From contig PBIO01000021.1 of NCBI GenBank assembly GCA_002720865.1, positions 1 through 34,887 on the forward strand: 34,887 bases of DNA. Reading direction: 5' to 3'. This DNA comes from Halobacteriovorax sp. (GTDB taxonomy: Bacteria; Bdellovibrionota; Bacteriovoracia; Bacteriovoracales; Bacteriovoracaceae). Position 1 is the first letter of the stretch. The number at the start of each line of letters is the position of its first letter. Shown in pieces: positions 123-20,610 of this stretch. The notes beneath the pieces are model-generated. The model did no database searches. It was given only the letters and a program-made list of their open reading frames with translations, and was not told the origin of the DNA. Made by a program: the position numbers and the translations under genes.

Positions 123-1595
123 TTATGTATATTTAAATTGTGTGGCGAACCCGCCACCGCTGGATTGATTTACCCACGTTGGCGCTGAAGTTCCGTTGGA
201 CTGTAGTATTTGACCAGCCACGCCAACCGCTAACATCGCTGTGACATTAGCGCTAGTTTGATATGGGATTGTTCCAGCCGAACCGCCTGTAATCATCAAA
301 TGCGTTGGTGTACCCGACACATCTGCATAAGCTCCTGTGCTTGCTACAGTTGCCAAGCCTAGATTAGTTCTGGCTGTTGAGGCCGAGGCTAAATCACTTA
401 AATTACTGCTCTTTAAAAGAAAGTTTCCTGTCGCAGTAACACCGCCCTGCCATGCCGAACCATTGTAAACTTTTAGCTCATTACCTGATGAGTCAAAGAA
501 AAGGTCACCGTCACTAAGTGCATTTCCTCCACCGTCAGTGGTCGGTTCCGTAGCGCTGATTTGATAAAGGTCTGCAAAATTATTTACGTCAGTTATGTTA
601 TCCGCAACAGTTGTTACATTGCTGGAAACACCAGCCACGGTTGTAACATTTGCAGATATACCAGCAACACCAGTTACATCAGAGCTAATCCCTGCTACGG
701 TTGTCACGTTAGAAGAAACCCCAGCAACGGTAGTTACATTTGCAGATATTCCACTCACACTTGTAACATCTGACGCGATAGCATTTACGCCAGTAACATC
801 GCTAGATATGCCAGCCACAGTGGTAACGTCACTAGTTATTCCAGCCACACTATTGATATTGGCAGAATTACTATTTACAGCGTTTATGTTCGTGGCGTTG
901 CCAGACACATTTCCAATGCTTGTCTTCAGTGGGTCTGTATTCACAGCCGTTACGTCTGATGCAATCGCGTTTACACCACTTACATCGCTTGAGATGCCAG
1001 CAACAGCAGTTACGTCTGACGAAACCCCAGCCACAGTGGTTACGTTTGCAGAAATTCCAGAAACAGTAGTTACGTCTGACGATATGCCAGCGACCGTGCC
1101 TAAATTATTTGTCGGGGCAATCTGCCCAGCAACCGTTTGAAGATTGTTGTTAGTTATTTGGGGTGCGACTGTCGCAACGTCTGTGCCTGTCGCTAGGTCG
1201 ATCCCATAAAGTGTGCTACCAGTTTGCCAGATAATCGCTGTGGTAATATTTGCAGCTACACTTACAGTTGACGATCCGTTGCTGAATGTTAATGCGTAAG
1301 TGCCACCTGTTGCGTTATGAATTACATACCATCGCTCTGTTGCTGGCAGTGTAATAGTCGGCTCAGACGCTAAACCGCCGTCTGTAAACCGCAACACCCT
1401 ATTTCTTGACTCATTAGAAACATATTGCGTTGTTGAAAGCGCAACGTTGCCTGTAAGACTTATCTCTTCTACACCCGACACAGCCTCATCTATAAGCGCT
1501 AAAGTATCTGAGTTAAGTTCTGCGCCCCACGTATCTGCGAAATCTCCAGTACCGATTAACCGTAAGGCTAGGCGTTCAGATGGTGTTGAAGCCAT
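123..1595 (-). CDS. Tail fibre protein with decapeptide repeats
   Basis: A 490-aa virion protein, probably the receptor-binding fibre. The N-terminal 100 residues (TWGAELNSDTLALIDEAVSG, then SLTGNVALSTTQY and RVLRF) match the usual N-terminal module of phage fibres that start GTWG..LN..F..IDEA. Residues of about 165-340 are near-perfect ten-residue repeats of the type TVAGISSDVT, varying S/A, D/N and I/V, as expected for a trimeric shaft. The C-terminal part has the fibre motif NLSDLASASTARTNLGL followed by a low-complexity G/S/T tip. The start follows AGGAG. Downstream of the adaptor genes and upstream of the truncated gene at 1-107. The high content of repeats makes it prone to recombination. 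Confidence 0.88.
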   Translation of the reverse strand: MASTPSERLALRLIGTGDFADTWGAELNSDTLALIDEAVSGVEEISLTGNVALSTTQYVSNESRNRVLRFTDGGLASEPTITLPATERWYVIHNATGGTYALTFSNGSSTVSVAANITTAIIWQTGSTLYGIDLATGTDVATVAPQITNNNLQTVAGQIAPTNNLGTVAGISSDVTTVSGISANVTTVAGVSSDVTAVAGISSDVSGVNAIASDVTAVNTDPLKTSIGNVSGNATNINAVNSNSANINSVAGITSDVTTVAGISSDVTGVNAIASDVTSVSGISANVTTVAGVSSNVTTVAGISSDVTGVAGISANVTTVAGVSSNVTTVADNITDVNNFADLYQISATEPTTDGGGNALSDGDLFFDSSGNELKVYNGSAWQGGVTATGNFLLKSSNLSDLASASTARTNLGLATVASTGAYADVSGTPTHLMITGGSAGTIPYQTSANVTAMLAVGVAGQILQSNGTSAPTWVNQSSGGGFATQFKYT

Positions 1596-13489: not shown

Positions 13490-14518
13490 TTAAGCAAGCA
13501 GCCATTGCTCGGCTACAGCCTTCCCCACCCGCTTAGTCATAAATGGCGGAACACTCATTCCCATTACATAGCAAGGATCAGAATTTAAAAAATTATAATC
13601 ATCTGGAAAAGTCTGAAGCCTTGTTATTTCTCCTTGGCTTAACTTTCTACATTCTTCCCAATGACAAAGACCAGATTTTGCAATTACAGTTGGAGATGGC
13701 TTTTTAGGATTTATTTTTGTCCAGGTAAAAAAGTGTCCTTTGTGATGAGCTTTTGCAAAAGAATCTCCCGTTTTCACTTTAGACCACAGCTTTTCTGCTG
13801 CAGGTCCCATCGTGTTAATTACACCGTGATTTTTTATTCCAAGAAAGGCTTCTCCTACTGATATAGGCCGCTCGTTAAATTCTGGCTTTAAAGGCGGAAA
13901 ATCTAAATCATTTCTTCTAGCTATAAAAAAAGTTCTTTCTCTTGCCTGAGGCACCCCCATCTTTGAAGCATTAAAAAGAAAAAGCTGGCAACTATATCCG
14001 GCTTCTCGGAAGTATGTAAAAATCTCTTTAACATAACCCCGAGCATTGCCAGCCAATAAACCTTTTACATTTTCAGCAATAATAACCTTTGGCTGTAATC
14101 TTTTTCCAGCCTCTATAAAGTGATAAAAAAGGTCATCTAATCTTTGTTTCTTTTGGCCCTCTCTAAAAAAATTTTCTTTTCCCCACTTTTTCTCTCTTTT
14201 CCCAGCCATGCTAAAAACTGAGCAGGGAGGTGAGCCATCAAGAATGTCTAATTTTTTAACTTCATCAGGAATTTCTTTTATTGGAAGATTATTAAAATCC
14301 TGAATCCCCATTAAATAGCTGTATTTTGGTTTATGGTTCTCTCTATATAGCTCCATCATTTCTTTATCTATTTCAACGCCACCAAGAACATTGAAGCCAG
14401 CAAGTTTGTATCCCATTGAAGAACCGCCTCCACAATGGAAGCAAGAAAATACATTTAAACCATTTTTCTTAATTCCAGAAATATCGGAAAGATTCCACGG
14501 GATATTATTTTTTGTCAT
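13490..14518 (-). CDS. DNA (cytosine-5) methyltransferase
   Basis: A 342-aa C5-MTase with the ordered motifs I (VFSCFHCGGGSSMGYKLAG, 23-41), IV (DGSPPCS, catalytic C99), VI (AENVKGL, 148-154), VIII (QARERTFFIA, 191-200) and X (GMSVPPFMTKRVGKAVAEQW near the end). Between VIII and X is a short target-recognition region. It transfers methyl from SAM to cytosine, probably to protect phage DNA from restriction or to mark it for packaging. The start overlaps the ParB-like gene by 14 bases. No restriction endonuclease gene lies beside it, so it is an orphan methylase. The stretch 13560-15000 is visibly AT-richer than its neighbours, suggesting separate acquisition. Confidence 0.92.
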   Translation of the reverse strand: MTKNNIPWNLSDISGIKKNGLNVFSCFHCGGGSSMGYKLAGFNVLGGVEIDKEMMELYRENHKPKYSYLMGIQDFNNLPIKEIPDEVKKLDILDGSPPCSVFSMAGKREKKWGKENFFREGQKKQRLDDLFYHFIEAGKRLQPKVIIAENVKGLLAGNARGYVKEIFTYFREAGYSCQLFLFNASKMGVPQARERTFFIARRNDLDFPPLKPEFNERPISVGEAFLGIKNHGVINTMGPAAEKLWSKVKTGDSFAKAHHKGHFFTWTKINPKKPSPTVIAKSGLCHWEECRKLSQGEITRLQTFPDDYNFLNSDPCYVMGMSVPPFMTKRVGKAVAEQWLLA

Positions 14519-15029
14519 CAAATTCAAAGCCGCAGCGAGGACACTTATGATCAAAATTACTAAAATCTTCCTCTTCTAATTCTTTAACCCCCTCCATGTC
14601 AAAATTACTATCTAATCCTTCGGGGTCTAAAAAAATAGAAAGCTCATGTTCACTAAAACCAATTAAATCCAAGTCAAATTCTAATTCTTTTAGCCGCTCT
14701 ATTTCTGTACCTAATAAAGAAAAATCCCAACTAGCGTTTAAAGCTAAGTTGTTATCTATAATAATATATGCTTTCTTTTGCGCCTCTGTAAGCCCCTCTA
14801 GCGTGATCGTAGGCACTGCATCGTAGTTTAATAGTCTTGCGGCCTCTAAACGACCATGACCAGCTATTATACCGCCTTTATCGTCTATCAGGATAGGGTT
14901 GGTAAAGCCGTATTCTGCAATGCTTGAGGCAATCTGTTTTACTTGTGCCTCATTATGTGTTCTAGCGTTATTAACGTATGGAATTAGCTCTGATACATTT
15001 TTCTTTTTTATAGTCGGGAAATTTCTCAT
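14505..15029 (-). CDS. ParB/Srx-like nuclease-domain protein with C-terminal CxxC
   Basis: A 174-aa protein. Residues 1-95 form a ParB-type N-terminal domain: PYVNNARTHNEAQVKQIASS, GFTNPILIDDKGGIIAGHGR, LEAARLL, with the signature AGHGRLEAA at 56-64. An acidic linker leads to HKCPRCGFEF (C163, C166), a half zinc knuckle. Phage ParB-like proteins next to or fused with DNA methylases are common and are thought to bind or nick DNA near the methylase target. Here the two genes overlap and are coupled. Only one CxxC pair is present, so zinc binding would need dimerisation or other ligands. Confidence 0.82.
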   Translation of the reverse strand: MRNFPTIKKKNVSELIPYVNNARTHNEAQVKQIASSIAEYGFTNPILIDDKGGIIAGHGRLEAARLLNYDAVPTITLEGLTEAQKKAYIIIDNNLALNASWDFSLLGTEIERLKELEFDLDLIGFSEHELSIFLDPEGLDSNFDMEGVKELEEEDFSNFDHKCPRCGFEFDDKK

Positions 15030-17662: not shown

Positions 17663-18145
17663 GCTTGCCGCCTCATCTAAAGCCTGACGTAACAATGACA
17701 CTGGCGTTTCTTTCGACGGCGACCAATTAAGCTTATGCGCCCACGTGGTTGCAAACTCCCCATGCCCACACACGCCGATTAGCACAGATGCTTGCCGCAA
17801 AGTTAGACGCCCCAATACGTCACGCACTTGCTCCCTCGAATAGACTTCATCATCTACTCCGCCGCCTACTCCCGCACTTGCGCCATATCTCGCTGTGACC
17901 CTGTTTTGATTTACAGACCTATAATAGTGTTGCCGAAAAAGGTTGCCAGCTTCGTATTGTTTGTCAGTCAGCAAGCTTCGATGCAACATTACATCCAATG
18001 GGTGTTCATACCTCACACGGCGAACAGTCTGCACCGCCTTGCCGCCTTTAGGTTTAAACGCTACATCATCAACTGGACTATGTTGGCTTCTCTCTGGCGT
18101 TTCTCGTAACTCTTGCGGCTCTAATGCTTCTTTCTTTTTACTCAT
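17648..18145 (-). CDS. 165-aa protein at the end of the replication operon
   Basis: Starts MSKKKEALEPQELRETPERS at 18145, chosen because GGAG precedes it and it overlaps the methylase stop by eight bases; an upstream in-frame ATG at 18187 is the alternative. After a disordered basic N-terminus there is a folded part (HPLDVMLHRSLLTDKQYEAG, NLFRQHYYRSVNQNRVTARY). The C-terminus (YSREQVRDVLGRLTLRQASV) with LIGVCGHGE is a helical bundle with an HTH-like feel. It recalls the uncharacterised alphaproteobacterial family DUF6456. A DNA-binding role is only a guess. Confidence 0.68.
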   Translation of the reverse strand: MSKKKEALEPQELRETPERSQHSPVDDVAFKPKGGKAVQTVRRVRYEHPLDVMLHRSLLTDKQYEAGNLFRQHYYRSVNQNRVTARYGASAGVGGGVDDEVYSREQVRDVLGRLTLRQASVLIGVCGHGEFATTWAHKLNWSPSKETPVSLLRQALDEAASLWKL

Positions 18146-18662
18146 TAGTGACTCCGTTGTGGTATCGTACAACGGGTTCTTTTTCATGGGGTATTCTCCT
18201 GTCAAAAATAAGCCATTGGTAATTATGAATAGGGCTTGCCGTGGCTGGTTCTTCTGACCAATAAGGTCGATACTGCAGACGAAGGCTGCAAGCAAAAGGC
18301 CAATGCCAATAGCTGGCTCTGGTCTTGGCACAATCCCAGCTTATACGCATAAGTGCGGCGGCTACTTGTATGTCACCGTCCTTAACTGCATCTATGACGC
18401 CTCTCATTAACTGATCCACTAATTTTTTCTGATATGGTGGATTAGTAATTATGCTTGCAAAACGCCCTTTAACATCCCTAAGTGTGCCGTTTTCCGCTGG
18501 GTATAATCTTGTTGGCTCATTTGCATTGCAGAAAGGGTCAAGGGCTGGCATTGGGATGTCAGGGTAAGCGTCAAGCAAGCTTTTGATACACCTATCATCG
18601 ACTGTGGGGTAATGATCCAATTCTCTTCTGTTGAAATTGCTCGTTGTATACTGGTTACTCAT
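18138..18662 (-). CDS. Phage DNA adenine (N6) methyltransferase-like protein
   Basis: A 174-aa protein with the compact architecture of phage amino-methylases. The SAM-side motif is LDPFCNANEPTRLY (about 41-54, in place of the glycine loop), and motif IV is IITNPPYQKK with NPPY at 74-77. Then come VAAALMRISWDCAKTRASYW and the PIHNYQWLIFDRR strand near the end. It is shorter than full methylases but normal for this phage group. The expected reaction is adenine N6 methylation of phage DNA. It is coupled to the DnaA-domain gene by TAATG. It is the second methylase in the window and lies in the early operon, unlike the late cytosine methylase. Confidence 0.78.
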   Translation of the reverse strand: MSNQYTTSNFNRRELDHYPTVDDRCIKSLLDAYPDIPMPALDPFCNANEPTRLYPAENGTLRDVKGRFASIITNPPYQKKLVDQLMRGVIDAVKDGDIQVAAALMRISWDCAKTRASYWHWPFACSLRLQYRPYWSEEPATASPIHNYQWLIFDRRIPHEKEPVVRYHNGVTNE

Positions 18663-19192
18663 TAGTCATCGTATTTTTCCAGAAAAACACTTTCCCGGCG
18701 AAGCATCCAAGAATGTAAATTTTCTTCAATGATTTCCAAGCGCTCTCCAAAAGCGCTGTCTTGCAGTATTTTATCTTTTACCGCTTTAATCCCGTAAATT
18801 ATAGTCGTGTGGTCTCGCTCTAGCATCCTTCCGATTTGCGACACGCTAAAGCTTCTGCAATGTTTATCCGCTAAATACATAACGACGTGTCGTGGCGTTG
18901 CCACATCACTGGTTCGTTTGCGACCGTTAAAACAATCTGAACCTAAATCAAATTCTTGCGCTACAAATTCTTTGATCTGTGCAAATACGTCAGCATCTTT
19001 GTAACGTGCATTGACAGCTTGATTTAGCGAGGTGTGTGGCTCCAAGGATAATTGTTCCGCTAATTTGCTAACAAGCCACGCCGTCTTTTTATCATCCATC
19101 GCGTAGTCGATCATAGGCTTTACCTGCCCGTGGATAAATATTTGCAGCCGTAACGGTTGACCGCCGTGTTTTGGGAAAATGTTTAATCGCAT
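18662..19192 (-). CDS. Stand-alone DnaA domain IV protein
   Basis: A 176-aa protein whose residues of about 90-145 match the DnaA-box-binding domain: RTSDVATPRHVVMYLADKHC, RSFSVSQIGRMLERDHTTII and YGIKAVKDKI, including the signature RDHTT (126-130). The AAA+ ATPase domain of DnaA is absent. Instead there is an unrelated N-terminal helix region of about 80 residues. It could bind host or phage DnaA boxes to regulate initiation, compete with host DnaA, or assist the phage initiator encoded just upstream (10-base overlap). The domain is clear; the role is inferred. Confidence 0.88.
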   Translation of the reverse strand: MRLNIFPKHGGQPLRLQIFIHGQVKPMIDYAMDDKKTAWLVSKLAEQLSLEPHTSLNQAVNARYKDADVFAQIKEFVAQEFDLGSDCFNGRKRTSDVATPRHVVMYLADKHCRSFSVSQIGRMLERDHTTIIYGIKAVKDKILQDSAFGERLEIIEENLHSWMLRRESVFLEKYDD

Positions 19193-20025
19193 TGCACTAC
19201 CCTCATTTTTGTTTTTGCTTTTATCTGCACGACATTGCCTGGAATTTTTGCGCCTTCTGGTGCTTGGTCTATCAGCATCGTCTTTTCGTTGTCGGTTGCC
19301 TCGTAAAAAGCTTGTTGGATTAGCCGCTCTTCCTGTAATCGTGTCTGATCAGTTGCCCACGGCTGTTTGCCGATATTGCCGTACTTTAACCATTGTGCTT
19401 GCAACCTTTTAACGGCACTCGTCTTTTCAACATTGTCGTAAACGTCATTGCGCCATTTATCGCCGTCCATCATCTGCTTCAGCCATGTTGCACAATGAGC
19501 GAAGCTTTGCCACTCTGGTTTGGTTCTAATATAGGCTTGCAAGTCACCAATAATTTTTTCTGGGGTTGTGCCTTTTTTTCGTGTTTTCACAAACCGTTGT
19601 CTAGCAGAATTTTTGTCCCCCTTTTTGTTGGGGTACTTACTGTAGAATTGCTCAAACTCTTCGTGCATTTTTTCGTTAACACTATTTATATTCTTACTTG
19701 TATTCTTACTTGTATTCTTAGAGTATAGCTGTGACACATCTGTTATCTCACCATGAGACTTCTGATGTCTCACAGTGAGACTTCTACCATCATCCATAGG
19801 CAGGGTAATTGTGTAACTTGAGCTTCGCCCTGTCTTTTCCCAAGCTATATAATTTCGTCTTTTTAAACTTTGTAAACACCTGTGGAGAGTGGCCCGGCTT
19901 AACCCTGTTTCTTCGGTTAGTGTGTCAATCGAAGGGAACACGTTAGGCAGATGGCTTGCCAGAATTAACAGCGTCAACTTTTCGCTCGGTGGCAGCCGTA
20001 AGTCACGAATAGTCGGCAGTATCAT
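19183..20025 (-). CDS. Replication initiator, lambda O-like
   Basis: A 280-aa protein. Residues of about 8-75 form a winged helix-turn-helix (LRLPPSEKLTLLILASHLPN, SIDTLTEETGLSRATLHRCL). Residues of about 123-195 match the C-terminal O-like domain (FEQFYSKYPNKKGDKNSARQ, WQSFAHCATWLKQMMDGDKW), which in lambda recruits the helicase loader. The linker between them contains K-N-T-S repeats and is encoded by the candidate origin. The start at 20025 overlaps the preceding stop (ATGA) behind GGAG. No helicase or loader is encoded in the window, so host DnaB is probably recruited. Confidence 0.82.
   Translation of the reverse strand: MILPTIRDLRLPPSEKLTLLILASHLPNVFPSIDTLTEETGLSRATLHRCLQSLKRRNYIAWEKTGRSSSYTITLPMDDGRSLTVRHQKSHGEITDVSQLYSKNTSKNTSKNINSVNEKMHEEFEQFYSKYPNKKGDKNSARQRFVKTRKKGTTPEKIIGDLQAYIRTKPEWQSFAHCATWLKQMMDGDKWRNDVYDNVEKTSAVKRLQAQWLKYGNIGKQPWATDQTRLQEERLIQQAFYEATDNEKTMLIDQAPEGAKIPGNVVQIKAKTKMRVVQCD
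19689..19780. other. Candidate origin of replication inside the initiator gene
   Basis: Two palindromes, TCTCA-CCA-TGAGA (19746-19758) and TCTCAC-A-GTGAGA (19768-19780), are 22 bp apart and share a following CTTCT. Beside them lies an AT-rich tract with two and two-thirds tandem copies of TATTCTTACTTG (19689-19720). Iterons next to an AT-rich strip inside the initiator gene are how the lambda origin is organised. The 22-bp spacing is not a multiple of three, so it does not reflect a protein repeat. Confidence 0.55.
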
Positions 20026-20342
20026 TTTATTAACTCCCCATGCGTGTCTAAAGTTGAAATAATCAGCGTTGGCTTGTTTGGTTCTGTCACCGTCAGCAAC
20101 GATCCTTCTGGCGCACCCTCTAGCCATTTACGAATAGTTTTAAAACCACCCTTCACACGTTTCTGCTCTAATGGCTTTTCTTTTCCATTGGGATACTTCA
20201 GTAATAAATCGCAAGATTGATCTGCGCCTAATTGACCCAGCCGTCTGTCAACACGAACAGCCTCAATCCCAAATTTAATTAGCTGGTCACGTACCTTCAT
20301 CTCATCAGCGTAGCCAAGTCTTGCGGCGCGACTTTTAACCAT
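20022..20342 (-). CDS. PD-(D/E)XK family protein (resolvase-like)
   Basis: A 106-aa protein from MVKSRAARLGYADEMKVRDQ. The active-site pattern is visible: DRRLGQLGADQSCDLLL with D45, then LEQKRVKGG with E59-Q60-K61. The following GFKTIRKWLEGA and LLTVTEPNKPTLII match small nuclease-fold proteins of alphaproteobacterial phages annotated as Holliday-junction resolvase-like. It would act on replication or recombination intermediates. The start overlaps the Cro-like gene by eight bases. The true substrate is unknown. Confidence 0.68.
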   Translation of the reverse strand: MVKSRAARLGYADEMKVRDQLIKFGIEAVRVDRRLGQLGADQSCDLLLKYPNGKEKPLEQKRVKGGFKTIRKWLEGAPEGSLLTVTEPNKPTLIISTLDTHGELIK

Positions 20343-20544
20343 GCCACAGCTCATCTATATAAGCGTCAGCATCTTTAACTTTTTGCACTAGCAATTTTTC
20401 TAGCCTTTTCCGCGTTCTAATGTTTGTGGGTAAACCGCGATTTTTCCAGTGTGTAACAGCAGAAGGCGTAACGCCTATCATCTCTGCAACTAATGAAACA
20501 CCCCCAAGTGCGTCGATAATTTTTCGGGCCAATTTAATATCCAT
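20335..20544 (-). CDS. Cro/YdaS-like DNA-binding regulator
   Basis: A 69-aa protein with a clear HTH: ARKIIDALGGVSLVAEMIGV, then TPSAVTHWKNRGLP (about 6-39), as in Cro and YdaS-type proteins. It is the first gene of the leftward replication operon and faces the rightward recombination operon. No ribosome site precedes it, and the best -10 (TATAAC) lies six bases before the ATG, so the mRNA may be leaderless. It probably binds the palindrome between the divergent promoters and sets the balance of the two operons. Confidence 0.82.
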   Translation of the reverse strand: MDIKLARKIIDALGGVSLVAEMIGVTPSAVTHWKNRGLPTNIRTRKRLEKLLVQKVKDADAYIDELWHG

Positions 20545-20550
20545 AAAATC

Positions 20551-20587
20551 GTTATAACTTGATATGTTACTAAAAGTAAAGTAAGAT
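20551..20587. promoter_or_regulatory. Overlapping divergent early promoters with a palindromic operator
   Basis: Plus strand: TTGATA (20559-20564), 17 bases, TAAGAT (20582-20587). Minus strand: TTTACT (20575-20580), 18 bases, TATAAC (20551-20556). The perfect inverted repeat TTACT-AAA-AGTAA (20567-20579) lies in the plus spacer and overlaps the minus -35. One bound dimer could block both directions. Confidence 0.58.
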
Positions 20588-20610
20588 GATAAAAAATTTT
20601 GGAGAAAGTT

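Follow-up and report, generated by a model that had tools for sequence, protein, structure and literature searches.

The window analysed here, a stretch of 34,887 bp, covers contig C21, one of 33 in its assembly, from end to end, and an IMG/VR record is equal to it. It is a tailed-phage genome, with genes for a terminase, a portal protein, a P22-like ejection protein, a RecE-like exonuclease, an SSB, a holin and an endolysin. Tandem repeats of 30 bp, a multiple of 3, lie at 604-1082 within the tail-fibre gene (123-1595, minus strand), and at 13490-15029 (minus strand) a ParB-like protein adjoins a DNA methyltransferase. The scan of the window proteins, in which several large ORFs had no match, brought up no helicase, primase or DnaC/P-like loader, so the phage would be expected to use the helicase of its host. 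Where would replication of such a genome start? The initial annotation had placed a candidate origin inside the initiator gene, at 19689-19780. The genes and features at this locus are as follows.

19183-20025, minus strand: initiator gene, 280 aa, with its ATG at 20025 (HTH_36 and phrog_270 matches, alignment with relatives)
19846-19998, minus strand: winged helix-turn-helix (HTH_36), codons 10-60, recognition helix about LSRATLHRCLQSLKRRNYI
19764-19785, minus strand: iteron 1, AGAAGTCTCACTGTGAGACATC, with a perfect 15-bp dyad inside (7/7 arm pairs)
19742-19763, minus strand: iteron 2, AGAAGTCTCATGGTGAGATAAC, with an imperfect dyad (5/7)
19729-19741, minus strand: partial iteron 3, AGATGTGTCACAG, without the right half of the dyad
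19683-19728, minus strand: AT-rich putative unwinding element, 46 bp, 78% A+T, -46.6 kcal/mol
19444-19656, minus strand: C-terminal phage-initiator domain (FEQFYSKYPNKKG...ATWLKQ), from alignment with the MW202738 and BK5-T initiators
18662-19192, minus strand: stand-alone DnaA domain IV protein, 176 aa (PF08299, 1e-18), overlapping the 3' end of the initiator gene by 10 bp

The site is present where it was proposed, and lies on the minus strand, but the true extent is 19683-19785, in linker DNA of the initiator gene. Just upstream of this gene lies a Cro-like HTH gene (20335-20544), with a divergent intergenic region at about 20544-20599. After the DnaA domain IV gene there is a second, short methyltransferase-like gene (18138-18662, minus strand), which was not seen in locus L004.

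An ORF of 314 aa reaching 20127 can also be read for the initiator, but it is probably over-extended, because similarity to relatives starts at the ATG at 20025. The protein matches Pfam HTH_36 (PF13730, 5.7e-9) over residues 10-60, and in PHROGs it matches phrog_270, replication initiation protein (E 2.3e-22), over residues 7-219, covering the HTH and the C-terminal domain. Its C-terminal region also matches phrog_9327, 'primosomal protein', and this domain is the predicted part for contact with the helicase or primosome. Phage_rep_O of Pfam (PF04492) gives no match to the initiator at E up to 0.1, while the lambda O control matches it at 5.7e-36. The repeats do lie in a linker behind the DNA-binding domain as first described, but the name 'O-like' for the domain on the other side was loose. 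Two AlphaFold models have mean pLDDT of 52 and 57, and the HTH part alone is usable. The winged HTH is the best-modelled part of the initiator (block pLDDT 69-84); the interdomain linker, which consists of KNTSKNTSKNIN and a duplicated stretch, is of low complexity and modelled with low confidence. A Foldseek search with the second model gave no match at E 0.001; its weak matches were of HTH type, the DnaD N-domain among them. In a PDB sequence search with the initiator alignment, the best hit was a MarR-type HTH at E 0.0088.

The iteron array (19729-19785, codons 81-99) is a 22-bp direct repeat of 2.6 copies, which read in the order iteron 1, iteron 2, partial iteron 3 on the coding strand, 5' to 3' from 19785 to 19729. 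Both full copies hold the dyad GTCTCA...TGAGAY. What had been taken for two palindromes 22 bp apart keeps its spacing, but the second palindrome is imperfect, the unit is a direct repeat, and a third half-copy follows. The AT-rich stretch adjoins the iterons on their 3' side. It is the least stable 46 bp in the initiator gene by nearest-neighbour energy, and in the window as a whole it belongs to the least stable 0.07%. The AT-rich 12-bp tandem repeat reported next to the palindromes is indeed there, at 19689-19720, with 2.7 copies that are 100% identical. The density of palindrome centres reaches its peak for the whole window (4) in 60-nt windows starting at 19716-19731. The repeat period had been called out of frame with the codons. 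This holds for the period of 22, by which each copy codes for a different peptide, but the period of 12 is exactly four codons and encodes in frame KNTS twice plus KN.

Do these repeats have any role as DNA? One may suppose that they are a by-product of the low-complexity flexible linker. The in-frame 12-bp repeat, the loss of its sequence in relatives and the low-confidence modelling of the linker would all suit this explanation, but the 22-bp repeat does not follow from it. We searched for the best 36-nt self-match at periods not divisible by 3, by which codon repetition is excluded. The initiator gene has a self-match of 27/36 at period 22, a value reached by none of 3000 synonymous permutations and by one of 3000 codon-usage recodings. 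It ranks first among 34 window ORFs, with the next best at 21/36. The palindrome motif GTCTCAYNRTGAGAY, which was fitted to the two iteron sites, has 2 matches in the window against 0.16 expected; elsewhere in the 4.9-Mb assembly neither the motif nor its reversed control was found. Note that a lone perfect dyad with 7-bp arms appears in about one fifth of the recodings. It is the tandem array that is remarkable, and not a single perfect dyad of this size by itself.

The iterons are also better kept than the remaining gene. Four other viral contigs, very similar to one another, have initiators 91-92% identical to that of the window, and the 22-bp iterons are retained in all four. Each relative differs from the window at 3-5 of 63 nt in the iteron block, compared with 98-104 of 843 nt in the whole gene and 8-10 of 42 nt in the 12-bp-repeat stretch after the iterons. 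In three relatives the change T84M alters the protein at the dyad centre, with both arms of GTCTCA..TGAGAC kept. The third half-site is AGATGTCTCACAG in the four relatives, and is improved there by GTC at codon 97, which brings it nearer the consensus. Loss of the palindromes in close relatives, which would have spoken against the initial annotation, was not seen, except that in L005 a base change damages the second one and brings its dyad down to 4/7. Conservation at synonymous sites gives a mixed answer. Among four sequences, with L009/L024 (contig 3300020410) left out, synonymous identity is found at 16/17 informative codons in the iterons compared with 150/223 elsewhere (Fisher p 0.026), but a permutation test on the length of the longest synonymously identical run in the same four sequences is not significant (p 0.33). 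The 12-bp repeat is exact in the window alone and its sequence is not conserved. What the relatives share at the AT-rich stretch is the weak duplex (-46.1 to -46.9 kcal/mol). The retention of the iterons and the synonymous null fit the suggested selection at the DNA level, but the 12-bp repeat shows no visible conservation of this kind. We consider the by-product explanation very unlikely.

Another explanation is that the dyads are operator sites, used by the Cro-like protein or by the initiator acting as an autorepressor only. The dyads are of operator size, the Cro-like HTH gene lies close by, and there is one weak promoter-like match at 19751-19722. However, no iteron copy is found near the divergent intergenic region or anywhere else, and the sites lie more than 240 bp inside the gene, beside its weakest duplex and in the order that is common to the lambda origin. 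This makes the operator explanation a very improbable one as well. Least credible of all is that the inverted repeats form a structure in the initiator mRNA, since, despite the folding energies of the window (z -2.3) and L003 (z -2.5), these two fold differently, MW202738 is ordinary (z -0.8) and no Rfam family matches.

Very probably the site is an in-gene iteron origin of the lambda type. By far the best explanation, which we hold with high confidence, is that the phage carries its origin in its own initiator gene, where the initiator binds the iterons, the AT stretch melts and the helicase follows. In such a scenario initiator molecules, probably paired as dimers, would occupy the 22-bp iterons on one helix face through their winged HTH. 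The protein-DNA assembly would then strain the adjoining AT-rich 46 bp and lead to melting, and the C-terminal domain together with accessory factors would load the host helicase onto the opened strand. That the initiator binds and the tract melts, that helicase is brought in and that replication starts here is what we infer from this arrangement. GC skew was tried as further evidence for an origin and was set aside, as its sign change near 20.5 kb coincides with gene direction.

How does the locus compare with known systems? The design is known from lambda, and that the window provides a further example in a marine phage is well supported. In lambda the origin lies in the middle of the O gene and consists of iterons and an AT-rich tract, according to PMC7466680, which also gives two iterons plus the AT-rich tract as the minimal unit competent for unwinding. 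The window, with just over two iterons, is close to this minimum, while lambda has four annotated iterons. As in the window, the lambda iterons are tandem dyads of about 20 bp between the DNA-binding N-part and the C-part of O, and the least stable 46 bp lie on their 3' side. They are bound by O dimers, as stated in PMC5043065. The position within the gene, the repeat type, the weak duplex and the order at our site all match the lambda O control, which upholds the candidate origin. The differences are that the window initiator stands outside Phage_rep_O, having only the remote phrog_678 and phrog_391 in common with lambda O, and that the gene after the initiator is P in lambda and the DnaA domain IV gene in the window.

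Phage initiators homologous to this one have other iterons of their own at this position, in agreement with the lambda-like placement first proposed. The replication protein of BK5-T (ORF49), with an annotated repeat_region, is of the same family as the window initiator (phrog_270, at 1.3e-62 for BK5-T, and HTH_36) and 31% identical to it over the alignment. It has repeats in the same linker followed by an AT-rich stretch, but its iterons are 45 bp, in frame and of other sequence, and its hosts are Gram-positive. TP901-1 ORF13 and Tuc2009 Rep2009 bind repeats within their own genes, and these repeats are the ori, as PMC8965321 reports; their best families are phrog_186 and phrog_5708, unlike the phrog_270 of the window. 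Gene 18 of P22 and of phage L has different iterons inside each initiator gene, inferred in the case of L, and the other replication gene of these phages is gene 12, a DnaB-type helicase gene (both from PMC8022706). The gene 18 iterons are unrelated in sequence to those of the window. The nearest phage by terminase (53%), C72C1 (OQ984150), has a gene order resembling that of the window, and 24-bp dyad iterons in the linker with the weakest duplex just 3'. Its initiator differs, however, with phrog_1032 as the best family, and the window protein does not find it at E 1e-3. This locus of C72C1 (L110:13561-14388), with its 24-bp iterons, holds a probable unannotated origin.

Is the order of these elements general? 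The window gene, three relatives, nine other initiator genes and C72C1 were put through one scan for repeats and for the weakest 46 bp; with the window family counted once, this gives 11 distinct families. The scan recovers the annotated iterons in the lambda O control and puts the weakest duplex immediately on their 3' side. The order of HTH, repeats and weakest duplex is found in 9/11 families (window, lambda, BK5-T, MW202738, G164, G167, L047, C72C1 and TP901-1), with the weakest duplex beginning at most some 60 nt beyond the repeats on their 3' side. Tuc2009 and G286 are the two in which it does not follow the repeats. A synonymous null, which covered the scanned initiators other than C72C1, is not strongly exceeded by the repeats of four of them, being as good in 225/300 for TP901-1, 9/300 for Tuc2009, 17/300 for BK5-T and 48/300 for L047, partly because most periods of these four are in frame. 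Twelve further loci with phrog_270 hits were taken up, of which L036 and L037 duplicate G167 and the window, and ten (L035, L038-L046) were read together with L047. Eight of the ten (L039-L046), most of them short HTH proteins and L045 with its initiator gene not located, show no repeat above background and were for this reason kept out of the order test.

A related family offers one more line of evidence. At 41 lactococcal BK5-T-family loci, many of them near-copies, four recognition-helix classes, named after the sequences were seen, match four iteron classes in 41/41 cases; 40 were classed by helix match, and L083, without a helix match, was placed by eye from its protein. This co-variation fits cognate recognition of iterons by the helix. 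The nucleotide divergence between classes is 0.26-0.38 over about codons 51-125, and nearly all other stretches are close to the within-class level. In these initiator genes (L048-L088) head and iterons make up a single sharply bordered block, which exists in four interchangeable versions, and vary together, while the AT-rich stretch and the C-domain are common to the classes. As independent proof of binding the coupling is weakened by this linkage, since helix and iterons travel in one block. Block exchange of head and iterons would let phages swap their origin identity with lock and key intact.

The most unusual part of the locus is the DnaA domain IV neighbour, which takes the position of P in lambda and of a helicase loader in other phages. 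PF08299 is the sole DnaA-domain match in its product, with no AAA+ domain. The protein matches DnaA chains in the PDB, is 73% identical in three aligned relatives, and carries the stretch RDHTT, which we take to be the DnaA box-reading motif. Resembling stretches occur in 17 phage records, so stand-alone DnaA domain IV proteins are not new. The DnaA box TTATNCACA is absent from the window, where 1.8 are expected, and one-mismatch matches number 8 against 7.9 expected. In the 3.2 kb around the host dnaA, by contrast, there are seven TTWTNCACA. Could the O-like iteron binder and the stand-alone DnaA domain IV protein run the origin together, as a two-part machine not described before? We regard this as unlikely. 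If true, the domain IV protein would bind DnaA-type boxes without an ATPase domain and recruit to the phage origin either the DnaA or the helicase of the host; alternatively, it would occupy the host oriC, so that host initiation stops during phage replication.

The assembly also bears on the host of the phage. Its DnaA shares 97% identity with the DnaA of a Halobacteriovorax MAG. Among 19 sampled stretches, 12 are host-like, including L109 and L108. These have a GC content of 0.35-0.40 compared with 0.44 in the phage, and their tetranucleotide correlation with the phage is 0.57-0.73. Given this difference in composition and an assembly contamination of 4.36%, the phage may come from prey of this predator. 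Another contig of the assembly (C22, loci L128 and L129), phage-like and 38,856 bp long, has a composition correlation of 0.90 with the window over its first 10 kb, and the two have an SSB-like match and part of a tail fibre (62% over 86 aa) in common. C22 may represent another phage that infects this host.

A genome-collection scan for relatives confirmed none, and plasmids gave none. In the family one of 129 genomes was hit, namely the window's own, with the same result for the class, which comprises the same 129; at the phylum level the scan gave 2/368 genomes. Our literature searches found no paper on the origin of this phage and no replication work on its group, for which the site now provides a precise and testable origin. 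Initiators that do not belong to the lambda O family of Pfam show the lambda arrangement too. This suggests a rule, by which reading head, iterons and melting site stand in a fixed order within the gene.
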